Positions 1-6,712 of a DNA stretch of 64,000 bases are shown piece by piece. Each line of letters opens with the position of its first letter. The stretch's first letter is position 1. The translations under genes were made by a program, and so were the position numbers. The DNA lies in NCBI GenBank assembly GCA_013360915.1, contig JABWAT010000003.1, positions 1-64,000 on the forward strand, in the 5' to 3' direction. Below the pieces are notes generated by a model. The model was not told where the DNA came from. It made no database searches and saw nothing but the letters and a program-made list of their open reading frames with translations. The stretch comes from Bacteroidota bacterium. GTDB lineage: Bacteria > Bacteroidota > JABWAT01.

Positions 1-226
1 ATCATGAGAGCGTTGTGCTCTTCACATACAAAGGTCCGGACTTTGGTACAACCGGTCTTTTCAGGATGGTATCGGTCTGTAACAGGTTGTAACGGGGAGA
101 GAGGGAGACGGGCTGGTAATTTTCGCTTTTCATACCAAGCGAAGATGGGTTTCTTTATTCTCTTTTTCTACTTACCCCCCAAGACCTGGGCGATGTGCAT
201 CTGGGTTTCTGCTTAAATGAGCATAT
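1..226. other. Left flank of the cassette array, no gene seen
   Basis: No convincing gene is seen. The first 110 bases resemble host intergenic DNA, while 110-226 is mixed. A 7-base perfect inverted repeat (TTCGCTT and AAGCGAA, 8-base loop) lies near 121-142, without a clear T tract. It could be the host flank, or a further cassette remnant extending past the window edge. Confidence 0.4.
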
Positions 227-361
227 AATTAACGGTTTGCATATATGTGCAATAACAGATTAGAATTACGTACCTTATCGCTTAGCATAAGGTCTTTTAG
301 AGGCACCGACATTCGATTTACCACTTCACTTGCAATTGAAACATAAACGCTGTTGTAAGCC
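227..361 (-). repeat. attC-like site at the end of cassette C (degenerate)
   Basis: This lies just downstream of the helicase stop. Its R'' half is GGCTTAC-AACAGC (minus strand, 355-361 inward), sharing AACAGC with the attC at 5247-5381. The other half, near 227-243, reads TTAACGGTTTGCA on the plus strand, close to CTAACGTTTTGCA of that same site. The core-to-core distance of about 120 bases equals that of the other two long sites. The arms are only partly complementary. A perfect 7-base hairpin (272-278 with 287-293) sits in the middle. The R'' half is well supported by its match to the 5' end of cassette C; the outer half is inferred. Confidence 0.55.
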
Positions 362-368
362 GTACTTC

Positions 369-3323
369 TCATTCCACGTCACTGAAACTTCTAACTCCAA
401 TCCTTGTTGTCCCATTAGTTTCTGGTATATGTATTGGACTTGGAACTTCAGTCGAGTTGAACTCTTGTTTCTGTTTCGAGCAGATTTTTCTAAAGTCGCA
501 TTCCTCACATTTACCATTACTTGGTCTCATAGGAAATTCTCCGTCAAGAATTCGATTAACAGCCCACTCTATATTTTGAATAGCAGATTCAATAGCTTCA
601 TCTGTAATCGGAACATTTACTCTATTTGGTACCTCTTCCGTATTTGGTGCTTTTAGTAAATGAACCGAACCTGTTTTCGCATTCTCTCCTAAAACTATGT
701 CTGCTGCATAAGCATAAAGCTGAACTTGCAATGAGAGATTTATCCAGAAAAAGGGATTTAACTGTCCCTCAGGAAAATCCATTGACTTGAAATCTATTAC
801 TCTTGCTTCTAAAATATTTCCATCATTATCCTCTCGTAATAGTAAATCGATTGAACCTGTAATTAATGCTTTATCAGCTTTTAACTCAAAACGCTGCTCT
901 AATGATCGGCTTTGCACAAAATCTTCTGGATAACCTTCTGCATAATTACCTACTAAAAGTTTTGAGGCATTTCTGGCTCTTTCATAAGGTCCTTCTCTTT
1001 CAGGATCTCTTGATGGAAACACATGTTTTAAATGAAAAACATCCTCAGCAATTTCTTCAGCTTCTTCTCGTGTCGGTGCAGTATTTGAAAAAAGTTGATG
1101 AGTCCTATTAATAGCAGTATGAGTAGTTAATCCATAACCAAATAACTCAGGTACAGCAGGACTGTAGCCGTAAATTTTACGAAATTTATACTTCATCGGA
1201 CACTCTAAATAGTCCTTAATTTCTGTAAAACTTGTAGGCATTGACTCTTCGTCTATACGAGGGCGTTGTTCTACTCTCTCTATATTATCGGGTAAATTGT
1301 TTAAGTCAGTAACTATTGCAGGGTTATTAAGTCCTTGGATTCTCAGCTTATACGGACTAGGTCTTTTTTCGGTGGTTAGACCTGGTTGAATTTTACTGCC
1401 AGTTATATATAAAAATCTTTCTGCTCTAGTCAATGCGGTGTAAAATAATCTTGCTTCACCTGAATTATTGCTCTGATACAAGCCTCTGTTCAAGGCATTT
1501 TGAATTAGGTTAATCGGTAACCAGCCTCGATAACCTCGGTTGTCTCCTGGGAATCTTCTATTAACAACATCAATAATAAATACCACTGGGAATTCAAGCC
1601 CTTTCATTTTATGGACTGTCGAAATTGTAACCGCATCAGGTCTCGACATAAGCTCTACTTGGGTTGTATCATATCCAGATTCGGCTACATTTTCGAGAAA
1701 ATTTAACACACTTTGGTATCTATGGCCAGTATCAATACTTACAAACACCTTTTCAACATCCAAAATAATTCCACTGAACACACCCAAATCACGCATTACT
1801 TGTTCTTGATTCTGAAACTGTGTAGTTGAAACTCTAAATGCTTCTAATAATTCATGAACTAATAATTGAGGATAGACCTTTCTTCTAGCTCCGCCAATTG
1901 GTCTATGAATTTGGTTATTCCAATCAGCTAAAATTTCTAAAAATCGATTTAAATCAGCATTTGGGAAGACGGGTAATATATTCGAATTGAAAAAATTTAT
2001 TGCTTCTCTTCGTGGATATCCGGGAGACCTTAAAAGCCCCATTGAATCTCTAAGTGTTCTTGCATGAAGTCTTTCAAAAATTGACCCTTCTGCTTCGATT
2101 AGGTAATTAATATCAGCATCTGTAAGCGCATTAGTGTATTCTCGATGATATGGTGCACCACCATTTCGAGTACCACCTTGCACTGAACGCATCAATATTG
2201 CAATGTCAGATTTAGAAAGACCTCTTTCTGACCCGTCAGTTTCTATGTATTTAGTTCCAAGCAATTGATTTATTCGGTTAGCAATCCACTCAGCTTCATC
2301 TTGCTTAGTGTCAAACCAAAGGTTTCCGAAGTGCTGAATATTCCCATCGGAGTTTGAAACTGGTGCTTTATCAATTCTTGCAGTACTTAGTTCAAGCTGA
2401 ATAAATCTGTCTGATGTGGAGACTATAGTACTTGTGCTTCTAAAGTTTGTAGATAGGGTATGGGTAGAGCAATTTGGGTATCTCTGGTCAAAATCAATTA
2501 TGTTTCGAACATCTGCACCTCTCCAACCATAAATGGATTGATCATCGTCACCTACTACAAATAAAGAATTGAGGCGGCTGTATAATCCCCTGATTAAACG
2601 TTCTTGGGAAATATTAACATCTTGATACTCATCAACCATTAGATGCATGGCATTTTCCAGTGCTGCATTTATTTCTGGATTATTATTTTCTAGTGCTTCA
2701 ACAACCAATCGAATCATTAAAGAGAAGTCAATGTATTGGTCAGAGTTTAATCTATTACCTATATTTTTAAGGCAAGAACCCAATGAGACATCTTCTAATT
2801 CAATTTCATCAAGAGATAACATTTCATCATTAGCCATCTTCCAAGCATTCGAGACTTCAGCAATGGTCTGGAACATTCTAGCATTTCTAGTATCTGCTAA
2901 AATGTTCAATCCTAATTCATAATATCTTGACAGCAAAAACAACTTCAATCGGTTCTCATCAAGTACTTCATATTGCCGATATTTCGCATTCATGGAGCCT
3001 AAAAGATTTTGGCAAAAAGCATGTATTGTTCCTATGTACATTGCTCCAACTAAAGCCACAGGTAGTCCAGCTTTTTCAAGGGCAGATGCAACTCGTCTTT
3101 TTATAGATTCAGCGGCTTTTTCTGTAAAAGTAAACGCAATTACGCTCTCTGGCTTTGCACCTTCATGAATTAGTCTGGCGATTCTGAAGGACAGAGTCCT
3201 TGATTTTCCTGATCCAGCACAAGCCAAACATAAAATTTCATTTGTGTCATCAATAACAGCATTGTATTGGTCATCAGTTAATGATAAATCAATAGCGGAA
3301 TAAGTGTCTCTGAAAAGTGGCAT
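369..3323 (-). CDS. UvrD/AddA-like helicase with C-terminal PD-(D/E)XK iron-sulfur nuclease
   Basis: This is a superfamily 1A helicase-nuclease of 984 residues. Helicase motifs run in order: Q motif near 15-23, Walker A AGSGKS 36-41, DEYQD 231-235, GDDDQSIYGWRGA 258-270, VHKMKGLEF 570-578 and YTALTRAERFLYIT 628-641. The last 290 residues form a RecB/Cas4-type nuclease with GSID (D826), IDFK (D844, K846) and QLYAY near 868. Four cysteines, C708 and C939/C942/C948, are placed as in the iron-sulfur clusters of AddB and Cas4. It should unwind and cut DNA. Its ATG directly follows the methyltransferase stop (TAAATG), so the two are translationally coupled. No AddB partner is nearby, unlike housekeeping AddAB. 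Inference: it is the restriction effector or partner of the adjacent methylase, within an integron cassette. A DNA repair role is the alternative. Confidence 0.85.
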   Translation of the reverse strand: MPLFRDTYSAIDLSLTDDQYNAVIDDTNEILCLACAGSGKSRTLSFRIARLIHEGAKPESVIAFTFTEKAAESIKRRVASALEKAGLPVALVGAMYIGTIHAFCQNLLGSMNAKYRQYEVLDENRLKLFLLSRYYELGLNILADTRNARMFQTIAEVSNAWKMANDEMLSLDEIELEDVSLGSCLKNIGNRLNSDQYIDFSLMIRLVVEALENNNPEINAALENAMHLMVDEYQDVNISQERLIRGLYSRLNSLFVVGDDDQSIYGWRGADVRNIIDFDQRYPNCSTHTLSTNFRSTSTIVSTSDRFIQLELSTARIDKAPVSNSDGNIQHFGNLWFDTKQDEAEWIANRINQLLGTKYIETDGSERGLSKSDIAILMRSVQGGTRNGGAPYHREYTNALTDADINYLIEAEGSIFERLHARTLRDSMGLLRSPGYPRREAINFFNSNILPVFPNADLNRFLEILADWNNQIHRPIGGARRKVYPQLLVHELLEAFRVSTTQFQNQEQVMRDLGVFSGIILDVEKVFVSIDTGHRYQSVLNFLENVAESGYDTTQVELMSRPDAVTISTVHKMKGLEFPVVFIIDVVNRRFPGDNRGYRGWLPINLIQNALNRGLYQSNNSGEARLFYTALTRAERFLYITGSKIQPGLTTEKRPSPYKLRIQGLNNPAIVTDLNNLPDNIERVEQRPRIDEESMPTSFTEIKDYLECPMKYKFRKIYGYSPAVPELFGYGLTTHTAINRTHQLFSNTAPTREEAEEIAEDVFHLKHVFPSRDPEREGPYERARNASKLLVGNYAEGYPEDFVQSRSLEQRFELKADKALITGSIDLLLREDNDGNILEARVIDFKSMDFPEGQLNPFFWINLSLQVQLYAYAADIVLGENAKTGSVHLLKAPNTEEVPNRVNVPITDEAIESAIQNIEWAVNRILDGEFPMRPSNGKCEECDFRKICSKQKQEFNSTEVPSPIHIPETNGTTRIGVRSFSDVE

Positions 3324-4361
3324 TTAAAAATTCTTTTGTTGAAGGTGAGTCAGAATGTGTGATTTGATATTCTCAGCTTGGATTTTACTGAACTCAGGTG
3401 GTAATGCATTCCCAATCATCAATGCAATTTTTGTCCTCGGAGCATCAATTGGAAACTTATATGTCTTTGGGAATGATTGAAGCATGGAAGCTTCTCTGGC
3501 TGAAATACATCTATCTTGCTCTGGATGAAGAAAGCGACCTTTGGAAGGGTTTAAACAACCACCCGTGATTGTTGTCGAAAAATCATCCCATCTCAACCGA
3601 CCATATACGTCATTAAAACCTACATTTTCTTTTTGATGACATTTTAATTGCCGGTCTTTACCTAAATCTTTCCTACTCCCACCATTTTTGGGAATATCTT
3701 TAATCAAATTCAATATTTCATCTGAGTGATTAGGAAAAATCTGATGTAATGGGTCTTTTGAGTTCTCAGGTTTTGGGAGTTTACCTATAACTTGCCTAAC
3801 AGTTTTTTTCTTTTTTGTTGGTTCTGCAATTTTTAACGGTGCTAATCTAGAACCAACTAATACCAATCTTTTTCTGCTTTGAGGCACACCGTAGTCTTTA
3901 ATGTTAACTATTTTCCAATCTGGTTTATAGTATCCTGCTTTTTCTAATTCTTTGAGTGCGGATTTAAATGATTTGTCAAGTGCTAAACCGGGCACATTTT
4001 CCATCATGAAAGTGTAAGGTTTTAATTCTTTCACAAATCGTACAAACTCATTAATTAGCTGATTTCTTTCGTCTTCAACAGGTTCTGGCTTATTAAGCCT
4101 TCGTATTGAACTGAATCCCTGACAAGGTGGGCAACCAGCAAGTAAATGAATCGTTTTGTTGCCAAGTTCTTTCTTAACATTCTTAGTTGAAATGTTTCTA
4201 ATATCGTCAGTAATGACTTTGGTCTTTTTATGATTCAGTTTATAAGCCTTTGATGCAAGCTCATCAATTTCAAAAGCAAGCTGTGTCTGGAAACCAGCCT
4301 TGTGAAGTCCTTCGGTCAGTCCTCCAACTCCACTAAATAAATCTATTGATATCAATTTCAT
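3324..4361 (-). CDS. DNA (cytosine-5-)-methyltransferase
   Basis: This is a C5-methyltransferase of 345 residues that transfers a methyl group from S-adenosylmethionine to cytosine in DNA. The family motifs are complete and in order: I, DLFSGVGG at 7-14; IV, GCPPCQGFS with catalytic C80; VI, ENV at 121-123; VIII, QSRKR at 161-165; IX, REASMLQSFP; and X, GNALPP near the C-terminus. The target recognition region between VIII and IX is of ordinary length, so one short target site is likely, but which one cannot be read. It opens cassette C, about 32 bases after the crossover point, and is joined without a gap to the helicase-nuclease gene. That pairing suggests self-protection of host DNA in a restriction-like system rather than an orphan regulatory methylase. 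Confidence 0.93.
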   Translation of the reverse strand: MKLISIDLFSGVGGLTEGLHKAGFQTQLAFEIDELASKAYKLNHKKTKVITDDIRNISTKNVKKELGNKTIHLLAGCPPCQGFSSIRRLNKPEPVEDERNQLINEFVRFVKELKPYTFMMENVPGLALDKSFKSALKELEKAGYYKPDWKIVNIKDYGVPQSRKRLVLVGSRLAPLKIAEPTKKKKTVRQVIGKLPKPENSKDPLHQIFPNHSDEILNLIKDIPKNGGSRKDLGKDRQLKCHQKENVGFNDVYGRLRWDDFSTTITGGCLNPSKGRFLHPEQDRCISAREASMLQSFPKTYKFPIDAPRTKIALMIGNALPPEFSKIQAENIKSHILTHLQQKNF

Positions 4362-4387
4362 ATGTCGAATATCGGTTTTTCTAATAT

Positions 4388-4522
4388 GGCTTACGTTTTA
4401 CGTATTGGCGATGGTGGGGCATTTGGAAAACGTCAGCCCAACACTTGCACAAATACCCAATTGAAATACAAATGTTGAATGTGCAACTGTCAGCCCCACT
4501 ATTGCCAATACGATGTTAGCAC
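4388..4522 (-). repeat. attC site between cassettes B and C
   Basis: This 135-base imperfect palindrome has a left arm (plus strand) CGTATTGGCGATGGTGGGGC at 4401-4420 and a right arm GCCCCACTATTGCCAATACG at 4493-4512. The two arms match at all but two positions. A second, inner pair TTGCACA/TGTGCAA lies in the loop. On the minus strand it starts with R'' GTGCTAAC (4515-4522) and ends with AAAACG|TAAGCC. The R' core reads GTAAGCC where GTTRRRY is expected, so one T is missing. GTGCTAAC pairs perfectly with the first bases of cassette B. Confidence 0.85.
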
Positions 4523-4531
4523 TTGTTTTTA

Positions 4532-4990
4532 TCATTTTGTTTCTGGATACCACCAGCCTTCGTGTTTACGTTTATATTCTTTCCCTCGGTCGTCGATAAT
4601 TACAATCTCACAGACAAAAGGACTTTCCAAATAGTCTGCATTTCCTAAATGTGGTCTTGTTTGTTTTAAATCAAATTCTTTTGTCATTGTCGCTGAACTC
4701 ACAAAGTCCATTGTCGAGCCGCTATTTTCAACTAATGTTGGAAACCATTTATTCCAATGCTCTATAGATTGCTTGATTTGGTTAGTTAAAAGTTCAGTTG
4801 GTTCGGCTATGTTCTTTAAAATGTCAACTGTCAATTTACAGCAATTAGTCTTGCGAGCCTGTTTTAATAAGTGTCCCATAAAATAGTCTTCATTTATGTA
4901 GTTCATTAAACTAATAAATGAATGTCCGAAGTTGTGAGAAACACTTTTTAAAGGTTTATGACTTGTCATTTCGTGATTTTTTATGGCCAA
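4532..4990 (-). CDS. Hypothetical protein, second gene of cassette B
   Basis: The protein has 152 residues and matches no family I recognise. It has no signal peptide or membrane segment. It begins with a polar stretch holding a second possible start (MTSHK, residue 8), then a helical, hydrophobic middle and an acidic-basic C-terminus ending in GWWYPETK. The first ATG overlaps the stop of the upstream 79-residue gene (ATGGCCATAA), so the two are probably co-translated. Both sit in one integron cassette beside defence genes. A toxin-antitoxin or anti-phage role is possible but rests on context only. Confidence 0.7.
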   Translation of the reverse strand: MAIKNHEMTSHKPLKSVSHNFGHSFISLMNYINEDYFMGHLLKQARKTNCCKLTVDILKNIAEPTELLTNQIKQSIEHWNKWFPTLVENSGSTMDFVSSATMTKEFDLKQTRPHLGNADYLESPFVCEIVIIDDRGKEYKRKHEGWWYPETK

Positions 4991-5220
4991 ATAAATTCTT
5001 TCGCTTTTGGACTTTCTGGGTCAAACCATTCATCAGCAATTTCTTGAAAAATTGGTTGTCCTTTTTTGTCGGTTCTTGTTTGAATTAAATCCCCGACAGG
5101 TGCACCGTGTAAATATCTCAGTCGTCCAGTTGAGTCGAACTTAATCTTTCCGTCATTAAGCAACGCATCAAATTTTGGCCAATTCTTGATATTGTCTTTC
5201 GTTATTCTAATTCTGTCCAT
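4981..5220 (-). CDS. Hypothetical small protein, first gene of cassette B
   Basis: This charged, soluble protein of 79 residues has no recognised domain. Visible features are a stretch DGKIKFDSTGRLRYLHGAPVG and an acidic, proline-containing tail. The start lies about 33 bases after the cassette crossover (TTAGCAC), the spacing seen for the other cassettes. There is no strong ribosome-binding site, which is normal for cassette genes. It overlaps the following 152-residue gene by 10 bases. A small first gene overlapping a larger second one is a common toxin-antitoxin layout, but nothing in the sequence proves that here. Confidence 0.7.
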   Translation of the reverse strand: MDRIRITKDNIKNWPKFDALLNDGKIKFDSTGRLRYLHGAPVGDLIQTRTDKKGQPIFQEIADEWFDPESPKAKEFIWP

Positions 5221-5246
5221 TGTTTATTGGTGTCGCTCTAAAATTG

Positions 5247-5381
5247 GTGCTAACGTTTTGCAGCTACCCGAAGGGCGGGACTATTACCACAAAACTTGAT
5301 TTGAAAAACTAATGTTTGATTAACCACAAAACTGTCTTTGGAACACGAAACCCCGCCTTTTGGGTAGGTGCTGTTATGCCT
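5247..5381 (-). repeat. attC site between cassettes A and B
   Basis: This 135-base imperfect palindrome has plus-strand arms CAGCTACCCGAAGGGCGGG (5261-5279) and CCCGCCTTTTGGGTAGGTGCTG (about 5352-5373, broken by two unpaired bases). Such extrahelical bases are normal for attC sites. On the minus strand it begins with R'' AGGCATAAC and ends with AAAACG|TTAGCAC. The R'' pairs over 9 bases with GTTATGCCT, the first bases of cassette A. Confidence 0.88.
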
Positions 5382-5388
5382 AGTTATT

Positions 5389-5730
5389 TTATAGTTCATT
5401 GTACTTTTTGTTCGACCCTTTGCTTTTGTCTACTAGGTATTTTAAATCATTCTTATTCACTTTATTTTTTACAGCACTTTCAATGTCTATTCCAAATTCG
5501 TCACTGATATATGTGAGAAAAATAAAAATGTCGGCTATTTCGTCAGCGATTTTTTCTTTTGGAATTAGATTTATTTCTTGTTCATTTTTCCATAAAAACA
5601 ATTCATTAAGTTCAGCAACTTCAATACCTAGTCCTAACAATAGGTCTTTTATTTTATGAAACTGTTTCCAATCTCTTTTTTGCCTAAATTCTATAATCAA
5701 GGCTTTTAACTCATTAATATTATTACTCAT
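5389..5730 (-). CDS. MazG-like nucleotide pyrophosphohydrolase
   Basis: This all-alpha NTP pyrophosphohydrolase has 113 residues from the chosen start. The metal-binding pattern EVAELNE followed by DEIADIFIF (ExxE...ExxD type) is present. The tail, KSKGSNKKYNEL, resembles that of the short dCTPase/RS21-C6 branch. Members hydrolyse (d)NTPs to the monophosphate and pyrophosphate. The start is set at the ATG of ATGAGTAA, where it overlaps the stop of the EVE-HNH gene by 8 bases. An ATG 12 bases further upstream is also possible. As the second gene of cassette A, it may clear modified nucleotides or deplete nucleotides during phage infection. That is inference from context. Confidence 0.85.
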   Translation of the reverse strand: MSNNINELKALIIEFRQKRDWKQFHKIKDLLLGLGIEVAELNELFLWKNEQEINLIPKEKIADEIADIFIFLTYISDEFGIDIESAVKNKVNKNDLKYLVDKSKGSNKKYNEL

Positions 5731-6619
5731 TTCTAAATTCAAATTTTTTAGACTTTAGCGCTTCTTTTGAAGGGTGTAGATTAATATTTTCTGGTAAACG
5801 AATTGTTGTCCCATTAAGTTTTTGATAGTATTCAGATTTTACTTCTGGGCTAATGTGAATTTTAAATGACTCATCAATATACAACAATCCATTGTCGTAT
5901 AATTTATGTAAATCTACTCTAAGTAATAAACCATTTTTAACGTGATTTGAATTTTCGTCAAAATATGGTTGAATATGAGCCGCTTCAAGTAATTCAGGTG
6001 TTGTTTCATTTGTAATGCAGCATTTGTTTGAATATGCAGTTGTTATAATTGCTCTGAAATTTCCTTGACCCTTTCGTTCAGTTACAAGTCTTGATTTTTT
6101 TAGTTTTTCTAGTGTGGTCGGTAAAAGTTCAAATTCTTTTACCATTGATTCTGTAGCAATTTCAAGTGGATCATTTTCATTGTAGTACTTTATTTTTACA
6201 ATGAATCTTGAAAAATCAATCTCATAGTTGTCTAAATCCAAAAATTTGTCATCATCATAATAGACAGCATTTGTTAATACTATACAACCAATTTCGGAAT
6301 CTGTTACACTTCTTTCGTCTGAACTGTTGGAGGCTTTATACTTATCTAATCGGTCAATTAAATCCTGTTTACTTGTACAACCATTTTTGAAGCCGTATTT
6401 ATTCCAAGCGTCATTAACAGACATATTTTTATACTCAACAAATTGACCATAACCACCAATTTTTCTTATTGGTGATTTCAACATAAAGTACAATTTGTCG
6501 CCACTAGCAAGGCGAGAAACATTCCATGGTGTTGGTGTCCAAAAATTAATTTCCGAATTCAATCCTTCGGTTCGGAGGAACTTAAACCATTCTATATCAG
6601 TCGGTGAAATTGCAAACAT
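5723..6619 (-). CDS. EVE-like domain HNH endonuclease
   Basis: The protein has 298 residues. Residues 1 to about 130 look like an EVE/PUA-like fold (WFKF...FWTPTPWNVSRLASGDKLYFMLKSP...GGYGQF), the type of module that reads modified bases in DNA. The C-terminal half is an HNH_2-type nuclease: Y/C..C at 196-201, AAHI with H215, N229-G-LLLR, and DLHKLYD with H238, so the beta-beta-alpha metal catalytic set is intact. Known EVE-HNH enzymes restrict phage DNA carrying modified cytosines (type IV-like restriction). It opens cassette A, 26 bases after the crossover, and is followed by an overlapping MazG-like gene. The substrate is inferred. The assignment of the N-terminal fold rests on pattern recognition. 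Confidence 0.82.
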   Translation of the reverse strand: MFAISPTDIEWFKFLRTEGLNSEINFWTPTPWNVSRLASGDKLYFMLKSPIRKIGGYGQFVEYKNMSVNDAWNKYGFKNGCTSKQDLIDRLDKYKASNSSDERSVTDSEIGCIVLTNAVYYDDDKFLDLDNYEIDFSRFIVKIKYYNENDPLEIATESMVKEFELLPTTLEKLKKSRLVTERKGQGNFRAIITTAYSNKCCITNETTPELLEAAHIQPYFDENSNHVKNGLLLRVDLHKLYDNGLLYIDESFKIHISPEVKSEYYQKLNGTTIRLPENINLHPSKEALKSKKFEFRNE

Positions 6620-6636
6620 TGTCGTTTTTTATAATT

Positions 6637-6712
6637 AGGCATAACTCGTTTATAGCTCTCTAAAACATTCCCCAATCCGACTAATTTAGATGGCTATGGG
6701 AATGTTTAAGCC
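6637..6712 (-). repeat. Short attC (or attI-adjacent) site upstream of cassette A
   Basis: This 76-base site has a perfect 10-base inverted repeat, AAACATTCCC at 6663-6672 and GGGAATGTTT at 6698-6707. On the minus strand it begins GGCTTAAAC and ends CGAG|TTATGCC, supplying the crossover in front of cassette A. It is shorter than the other three sites (about 135 bases). No gene lies upstream of it before host sequence, so it may be the attC of a lost cassette. Confidence 0.65.

Follow-up and report, generated by a model that had tools for sequence, protein, structure and literature searches.

The tyrosine recombinases XerC and XerD move pdif modules at short, double-strand sites of about 28 bp, and Xer resolves chromosome dimers at dif. 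Integron integrases (IntI) accept varied attCs. The additional domain of IntI is used as the defining mark of an integron integrase (PMC9668308, PMC7790495). Cassette capture is considered to require the I2 insert, which is also considered unique to IntI, and intermediates in its origin are reported to be lacking (PMC7790495). In one recombinase classification, conservation of the insert across the integron-like subgroup is described as incomplete, although the insert is still considered essential (PMC8138268). Published integron screens use the IntI domain as their selection criterion (PMC9668308). Integron surveys recognise the integrase from its I2 insert and would therefore miss I2-less systems. 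In Bacteroidetes, IntegronFinder surveys recorded hardly any integrons (PMC9024848). A limited literature search returned no earlier description of I2-less cassette arrays.

The window, meaning the whole 64-kb stretch analysed, opens contig C3 of a Bacteroidota genome and covers its first 64 kb; base 1 of the window is therefore a contig end. According to its ORF list, three pairs of minus-strand genes occupy 369–6619. The initial annotation had read this segment as an integron array, with four attC-like palindromes between the gene pairs, and had proposed a covariance search of the window and the flanking contig. We used R1, a covariance model built from 44 sites of other genomes and none of this genome. 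On the 64-kb window, R1 gave exactly three matches, all full length, on the minus strand and between gene pairs, and no match at the fourth palindrome (about 6640–6712). The segment contains the following features.

6633–6712, minus strand: left half of an attI-like site (the fourth palindrome), a hairpin plus GCTATAAACGAG|TTA, with a 24-mer common to contig C31
5254–6644, minus strand: cassette A, about 1.39 kb, two ORFs; its start GTTATGCCTA equals its own R'' over 10 nt
5723–6619, minus strand: HNH_2 endonuclease-like protein of cassette A, 298 aa (Pfam HNH_2, 9e-13; PADLOC HNH, 1e-20)
5389–5742, minus strand: MazG-like nucleotide pyrophosphohydrolase of cassette A, 117 aa (Pfam MazG-like, 6.7e-14)
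5247–5380, minus strand: attC of cassette A (R1 83.3 bits, E 3.6e-18)
4394–5253, minus strand: cassette B, about 0.86 kb, with small ORFs of 79 and 152 aa; its start GTTAGCAC equals its own R'' over 8 nt
4387–4522, minus strand: attC of cassette B (R1 73.3 bits, E 9.7e-16)
233–4393, minus strand: cassette C, about 4.16 kb, methyltransferase and helicase-nuclease; start and R'' match in GTAAGCC (7 nt)
3324–4361, minus strand: C5-cytosine DNA methyltransferase of cassette C, 345 aa (Pfam DNA_methylase, 1e-60; PADLOC MTase_II, 2.5e-91)
369–3323, minus strand: UvrD helicase with a C-terminal PD-(D/E)XK nuclease domain of cassette C, 984 aa (Pfam UvrD-helicase, 3.8e-55; PDDEXK_1, 1.9e-23)
226–359, minus strand: attC of cassette C, decayed (R1 48.8 bits, E 8.1e-10)
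182–232, minus strand: right half of the attI-like site, beyond the other end of the array, 86% identical to C31:46-110

Several elements of the first description were borne out. The GC content is about 28–39% in the cassettes vs 50–60% in the host part, each cassette holds two minus-strand ORFs, and the match between cassette start and own R'', reported as 9, 8 and 7 bases, measured 10, 8 and 7 nt in A, B and C. The segment consists of circular-type, two-gene cassettes with partly defence-type content. The two ORFs of cassette B showed no match in Pfam, PADLOC or NCBIfam, and an Rfam search across the window found nothing. The attC of cassette A folds more stably on the bottom strand (−20.3 vs −13.7 kcal/mol). 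That of cassette B forms a stable hairpin on either strand (bottom, −26.4) and has a GTA boundary where GTT is expected, and that of cassette C has lost the long stem in the predicted fold. R1 yielded eight matches in this genome in total, including sites on C13, C10 and C31. The stem of attC A is 95–97% identical to the C13 and C10 sites, which end unrelated genes, and the C10 cassette has a start/R'' match of 10 nt. L180:2293-2926 (C10) and L179:4935-5810 (C13) are additional solo cassettes of the same type in this genome, one of which has a truncated leading attC next to a transposase gene.

The fourth palindrome had a different identity. The 24-mer TTTTAGAGAGCTATAAACGAGTTA occurs in the genome only at the left edge in the window and at C31:1147-1170, and it is absent from 30 relatives. 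Around it, the left half of the attI-like site is 81% identical to C31 over 89 nt, with the crossover between 6645 and 6644. The right-half sequence comes after the last attC in the window and on C31 alike. On C31, the order is the 3' end of a gene for a 363-aa tyrosine recombinase, ATAAACGAG|TTA, one nucleotidyltransferase-like cassette, and then ATGCTCATTTAAGNAGAAACCCAG. Since both array edges recur on C31, we assign the fourth palindrome to an attI-like site, as its left half; the right half lies at 182–232. The window array is an attI plus three cassettes, not four attCs, so that three of the four palindromes keep their initial assignment. The refuting outcome named in the initial annotation, no covariance match at any of the four sites, thus did not occur. 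No integrase gene is encoded in the window, and BLAST showed no remnant of one.

At the contig end, positions 1–60 of the window repeat, in reverse complement, the first bases of contig C21 (G000:C21:1-60), which suggests an assembly overlap. Beyond the overlap, C21 encodes a small secreted-type protein and a response regulator. From this overlap and these genes, host DNA probably extends to the left of the array. An empty site was sought behind the amylase gene of relatives, and the C21-side genes were absent from the 1.5-kb flanks.

The genome also encodes a true IntI on contig C23 (TIGR02249, 414 bits). The window array might then be an ordinary CALIN, with cassettes handled by the cell's own IntI and inserted elsewhere at a secondary site; a complete IntI is at hand, and IntI is established to accept varied attCs. 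However, the C23 array is composed of single-gene cassettes with attCs of the form CCTAACTATCGTTTCAYGGCGACA...AAACTTGTTGTTAGG, and R1 gave zero matches there and none at eight other IntI loci, although it recognises the window sites. The window attCs are thus of another family than those of the resident IntI array. The edges of the window array match C31, not C23, and 118 genomes carry R1 sites without IntI. We consider the CALIN explanation very improbable. Two cassette systems coexist in this genome, and the window attCs are not of the C23 kind. Of the integron array proposed initially, the integron-like cassettes stand, but the ordinary IntI integron does not, given the C23 attC family, the C31 edges and the I2-less recombinase described below. 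The C23 array itself (G000:C23:30051-36252; L016, L017) has at least six self-similar attCs of about 160 nt and small single-gene cassettes, and the contig ends within it.

The recombinase on C31 differs from IntI in its defining region. In our alignment, the region of the IntI-specific insert I2 measured 13–14 aa in all array-linked recombinases vs 43 aa in all IntI. The C31 enzyme failed the IntI cut-off (TIGR02249, 206 bits vs 265) and narrowly passed NF040815, an XerA-type model (233 vs 220 bits), and in the tree it fell outside the clade of resident Xer proteins. An insert-free alignment of clean groups separated IntI (100/100), Xer (100/100) and the I2-less group (90/75). In a quick tree, IntI was nested in the I2-less group, and a wider tree gave a polytomy. 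The AU test of the wider tree (p = 5e-9) was set aside, as contigs ending short of the array had been scored as 'no array'. A fold search with the modelled N-terminal domain of the recombinase returned recombinase-core matches only. Just upstream of the recombinase gene, a short ORF (L042:2349-2640, minus strand) shows a weak HARP-like match (E 0.03, under the cut-off) and a PGRRW..W motif that resembles the N-terminal domain of the C31 recombinase itself; the weak match of this neighbour hints at a HARP-like reading of that domain. Plasmid records of Klebsiella, Acinetobacter and Aeromonas list a TnpF or tyrosine recombinase 53–56% identical to the C31 enzyme over 61% of its length.

We drew relatives of the C31 recombinase from 31 genomes and 80 named contigs, the closest of the latter being nearly all from Bacteroidota. 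These relatives carry arrays of hairpin sites. An inverted-repeat search alone was rejected for site finding as too unspecific, its top rank being the attI hairpin. A simple scan for AAC..GTT arm pairing detected only one window site, yet revealed the arrays in relatives. The model-free scan placed 50 sites on the downstream side of the recombinase and 13 on the upstream side. The site cores span 117–127 nt, mostly 123–125, and in an alignment of 44 sites AACA and CGTT are invariant. Double compensatory changes occur in 13 of the 14 stem pairs, and 94% of stem cells are paired. The covariation score was 0.884 vs 0.175 ± 0.018 for shuffled alignments, and a shift of the stem alignment by one column abolished the signal. 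An A–C mismatch at a fixed place, which becomes a G–T pair on the opposite strand, is present in 38 of 44 sites, and the bottom strand forms the more stable fold in 35 of 44 (p = 1e-4).

The cassette signature and the linkage to the recombinase were equally regular. A start/R'' match of at least 7 nt, usually 9–10, was found in 61 of 70 consecutive site pairs (random pairs, 4.3%). Over 100 loci, R1 gave 119 matches. Downstream of the recombinase, 102 lay on its strand and 0 on the opposite one; upstream, 1 shared its strand and 14 were arranged divergently as in classical integrons. The other two belong to a locus that had no recombinase coordinate for this tally. As the training sites of R1 were picked downstream of recombinases, this positional count is partly biased, and the model-free scan and the held-out genomes are free of the bias. 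The first cassette mostly starts 50–160 nt past the recombinase stop and has a 9–10 nt match to its own R''. One branch of recombinases (L078, L080, L081, L082, L122, L124, L126) has the array on the 5' side in a divergent, classical-integron-like arrangement, and the extra N-terminal domain is missing in most of its members. At L076 (G006:C44:1-760), an I2-less recombinase, whose placement near IntI changes from tree to tree, precedes two tiny cassettes without a clear gene; start/R'' matches are present there, and the attC is too divergent for R1.

These data allowed us to weigh two further explanations of the hairpins. As terminators or REP-like repeats, they would separate the genes of an ordinary defence island; hairpins between co-oriented genes are indeed common, and site C is degenerate. 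Yet the core is uniform at about 124 nt with an invariant AACA...CGTT, the 9–10 nt start/R'' signature recurs in chain after chain, the recombinase is linked to the arrays with attI at short distance, and cassette C has exact mobility boundaries, as described below. We find this explanation hardly credible. For the chemistry, the most serious competing view is that recombination at these sites is double-stranded: the I2-less recombinase would work like Xer and the palindromes would be ordinary paired binding sites. This view draws on the membership of the recombinase in the XerA-type model and on its lack of I2, the element tied to single-strand recombination (PMC7790495). The letters of the stem, however, vary while the pairing is kept, which a double-strand reader of base identity does not need, and the conserved mismatches favour one strand; we therefore regard this chemistry as unlikely. 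The covariation indicates that pairing matters; that the substrate is single-stranded in the cell does not follow from it. Together with the strand stability, the covariation is consistent with the folded bottom strand being the form on which the recombinase would act.

R1 sites were present in 153 of 297 genomes of the phylum and in 87 of 141 genera, in a sample with one genome per species. IntI was encoded in 84 of the 297 genomes; 35 had both, and 118 had R1 sites only. The arrays are therefore independent of IntI. The occurrence of R1 sites in more than half of the sampled genomes is to be set against the near absence of integrons in earlier surveys of these bacteria. Among the 117 intervals between sites, the median length was 990 nt, 10% exceeded 3.1 kb (the 90th percentile) and the longest measured 6.6 kb. 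At least two co-oriented ORFs are present in 40 of them; the two-gene and multi-kb cassettes, considered unusual in the initial annotation, are thus not exceptional for the I2-less system. Large cassettes carry type I restriction-modification (R-M) genes (L071, L077), a type IIG system (L098) and a type II methyltransferase (L093), and a HaeII-type endonuclease was found among the cassette genes scanned. R-M operons in 4–6 kb cassettes are a recurring minority. As the other cassettes hold mostly varied or unknown genes, defence is one cargo class and not the whole. Chryseobacterium plasmids also bear the I2-less cassette system. The array of one of them (L184, NZ_CP041688.1) is broken by IS110, a group II intron gene and other transposases.

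Cassette C allowed a direct comparison between genomes, of the kind proposed in the initial annotation. Over 4,056 aligned columns, its segment 345–4394 shares 90.3% identity with G136:C14; G136 belongs to another family. The homology breaks off where the cassette starts with G|T (4394) and at its R'' (345), and the flanks are unrelated. These exact boundaries show that cassette C has moved as a unit. The G136 copy has another attC stem, which is intact. The same cassette body occurs with a different stem, and the stem of site A follows unrelated genes elsewhere; bodies and stems are therefore separable at R''. This separation may reflect recombination at R'' or be part of cassette formation, and the data do not decide between the two. 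Two copies of one cassette with different attC stems offer a rare handle on cassette birth.

The methyltransferase and helicase-nuclease pair also exists outside arrays, at 48–49% identity (G060, G107). It had been argued that gene pairs found elsewhere without palindromes would speak against cassettes. The pair is indeed found in such a state, but in a free-standing form that leaves the cassette reading of the window intact. At these loci (L182 in G060, L183 in G107), the pair has no R1 sites and another gene orientation, which suggests a free-standing two-gene system. By the standard of type II R-M systems, cassette C has the methyltransferase, and its partner is a helicase with a nuclease domain, not a typical type II enzyme. 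Cassette C would be an R-M-like unit with a presumed role in defence.

Taken together, we propose that the window segment is an orphan array of an integron-like system run by an I2-less tyrosine recombinase, encoded in this genome on C31, and we give this reading a probability of roughly 0.8. It rests on the three matches of an independent model that is silent at the IntI array, and on the recurrence of both edges at C31 beside the recombinase. It also rests on the stem covariation, the strand stability, the circular-cassette signature, the downstream linkage and the short recombinase–attI distance. The absence of I2, the 118 of 153 genomes without IntI and the exact boundaries of cassette C elsewhere add to it. 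The decay of site C and the GTA boundary of site B count against it. The linked recombinase would be the catalyst, and from the common boundary sequences the C31 enzyme would act in trans on the window array. In the proposed mechanism, cassettes would move as circles, and at G|TT the recombinase would join the attC of a cassette either to attI or to a second attC. The attC of the cassette would be read as a folded strand, probably the bottom one, because pairing is kept while the sequence varies. Cassettes would be added beside attI in a single orientation and may leave again. As a cassette may span several kb, whole R-M-type operons could move in one step, and cassette C would be such a unit.

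Whether the arrays form a second, phylum-wide integron-like class, in which an I2-less recombinase captures cassettes through folded single-strand attC sites, is a more general proposal to which we give even odds. If true, I2 is not the sole route to single-strand cassette recombination, and I2-less recombinases, which lie close to IntI in the trees made here, could preserve a pre-I2 state. A natural cassette system driven by I2-less relatives makes the question of the origin of I2 testable, and an I2-less array could show how integrons capture genes and where integrons came from. One-step movement of whole R-M operons would be an added route for the spread of defence genes, on plasmids too.

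The I2-less system shares much with integrons, including chromosomal ones and CALINs: circular-type cassettes, the G|TT boundary, R''/R' boxes, hairpin attCs with strand bias, an attI, an array beside a tyrosine recombinase, and mostly promoterless-looking, co-oriented genes. It differs in a recombinase without the IntI-specific insert, in an attC family unlike that of the IntI array of the same genome, in an attI that mostly lies at the 3' end of the recombinase gene, and in cassettes that are often larger and multi-gene. Judged by the features that define an integron, the cassette array, attC hairpins and circular-form boundaries are present, and attI lies beside the recombinase gene at linked loci; in the window, the attI-like site stands without an integrase beside it. 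The IntI-specific domain (I2, patch III region) is absent. As this defining feature of the recombinase is lacking, we do not file the elements as integrons. Treponema-type integrons (PMC3607928) likewise have recombinase and cassettes in the same direction and attI after the 3' end of the gene, but they use IntI, whereas the recombinase here has no insert. XerA/Xer proteins (NF040815; PDB 5hxy, 4a8e) provide the closest curated model and solved structures by sequence and also have no I2 insert; they form a separate clade (100/100), whereas the I2-less system has arrays, attI and often an extra N-terminal domain. Like pdif modules, its cassettes are discrete gene modules that would be moved by I2-less tyrosine recombinases, but unlike the short pdif sites its sites are covarying hairpins of about 124 nt, served by a dedicated recombinase.
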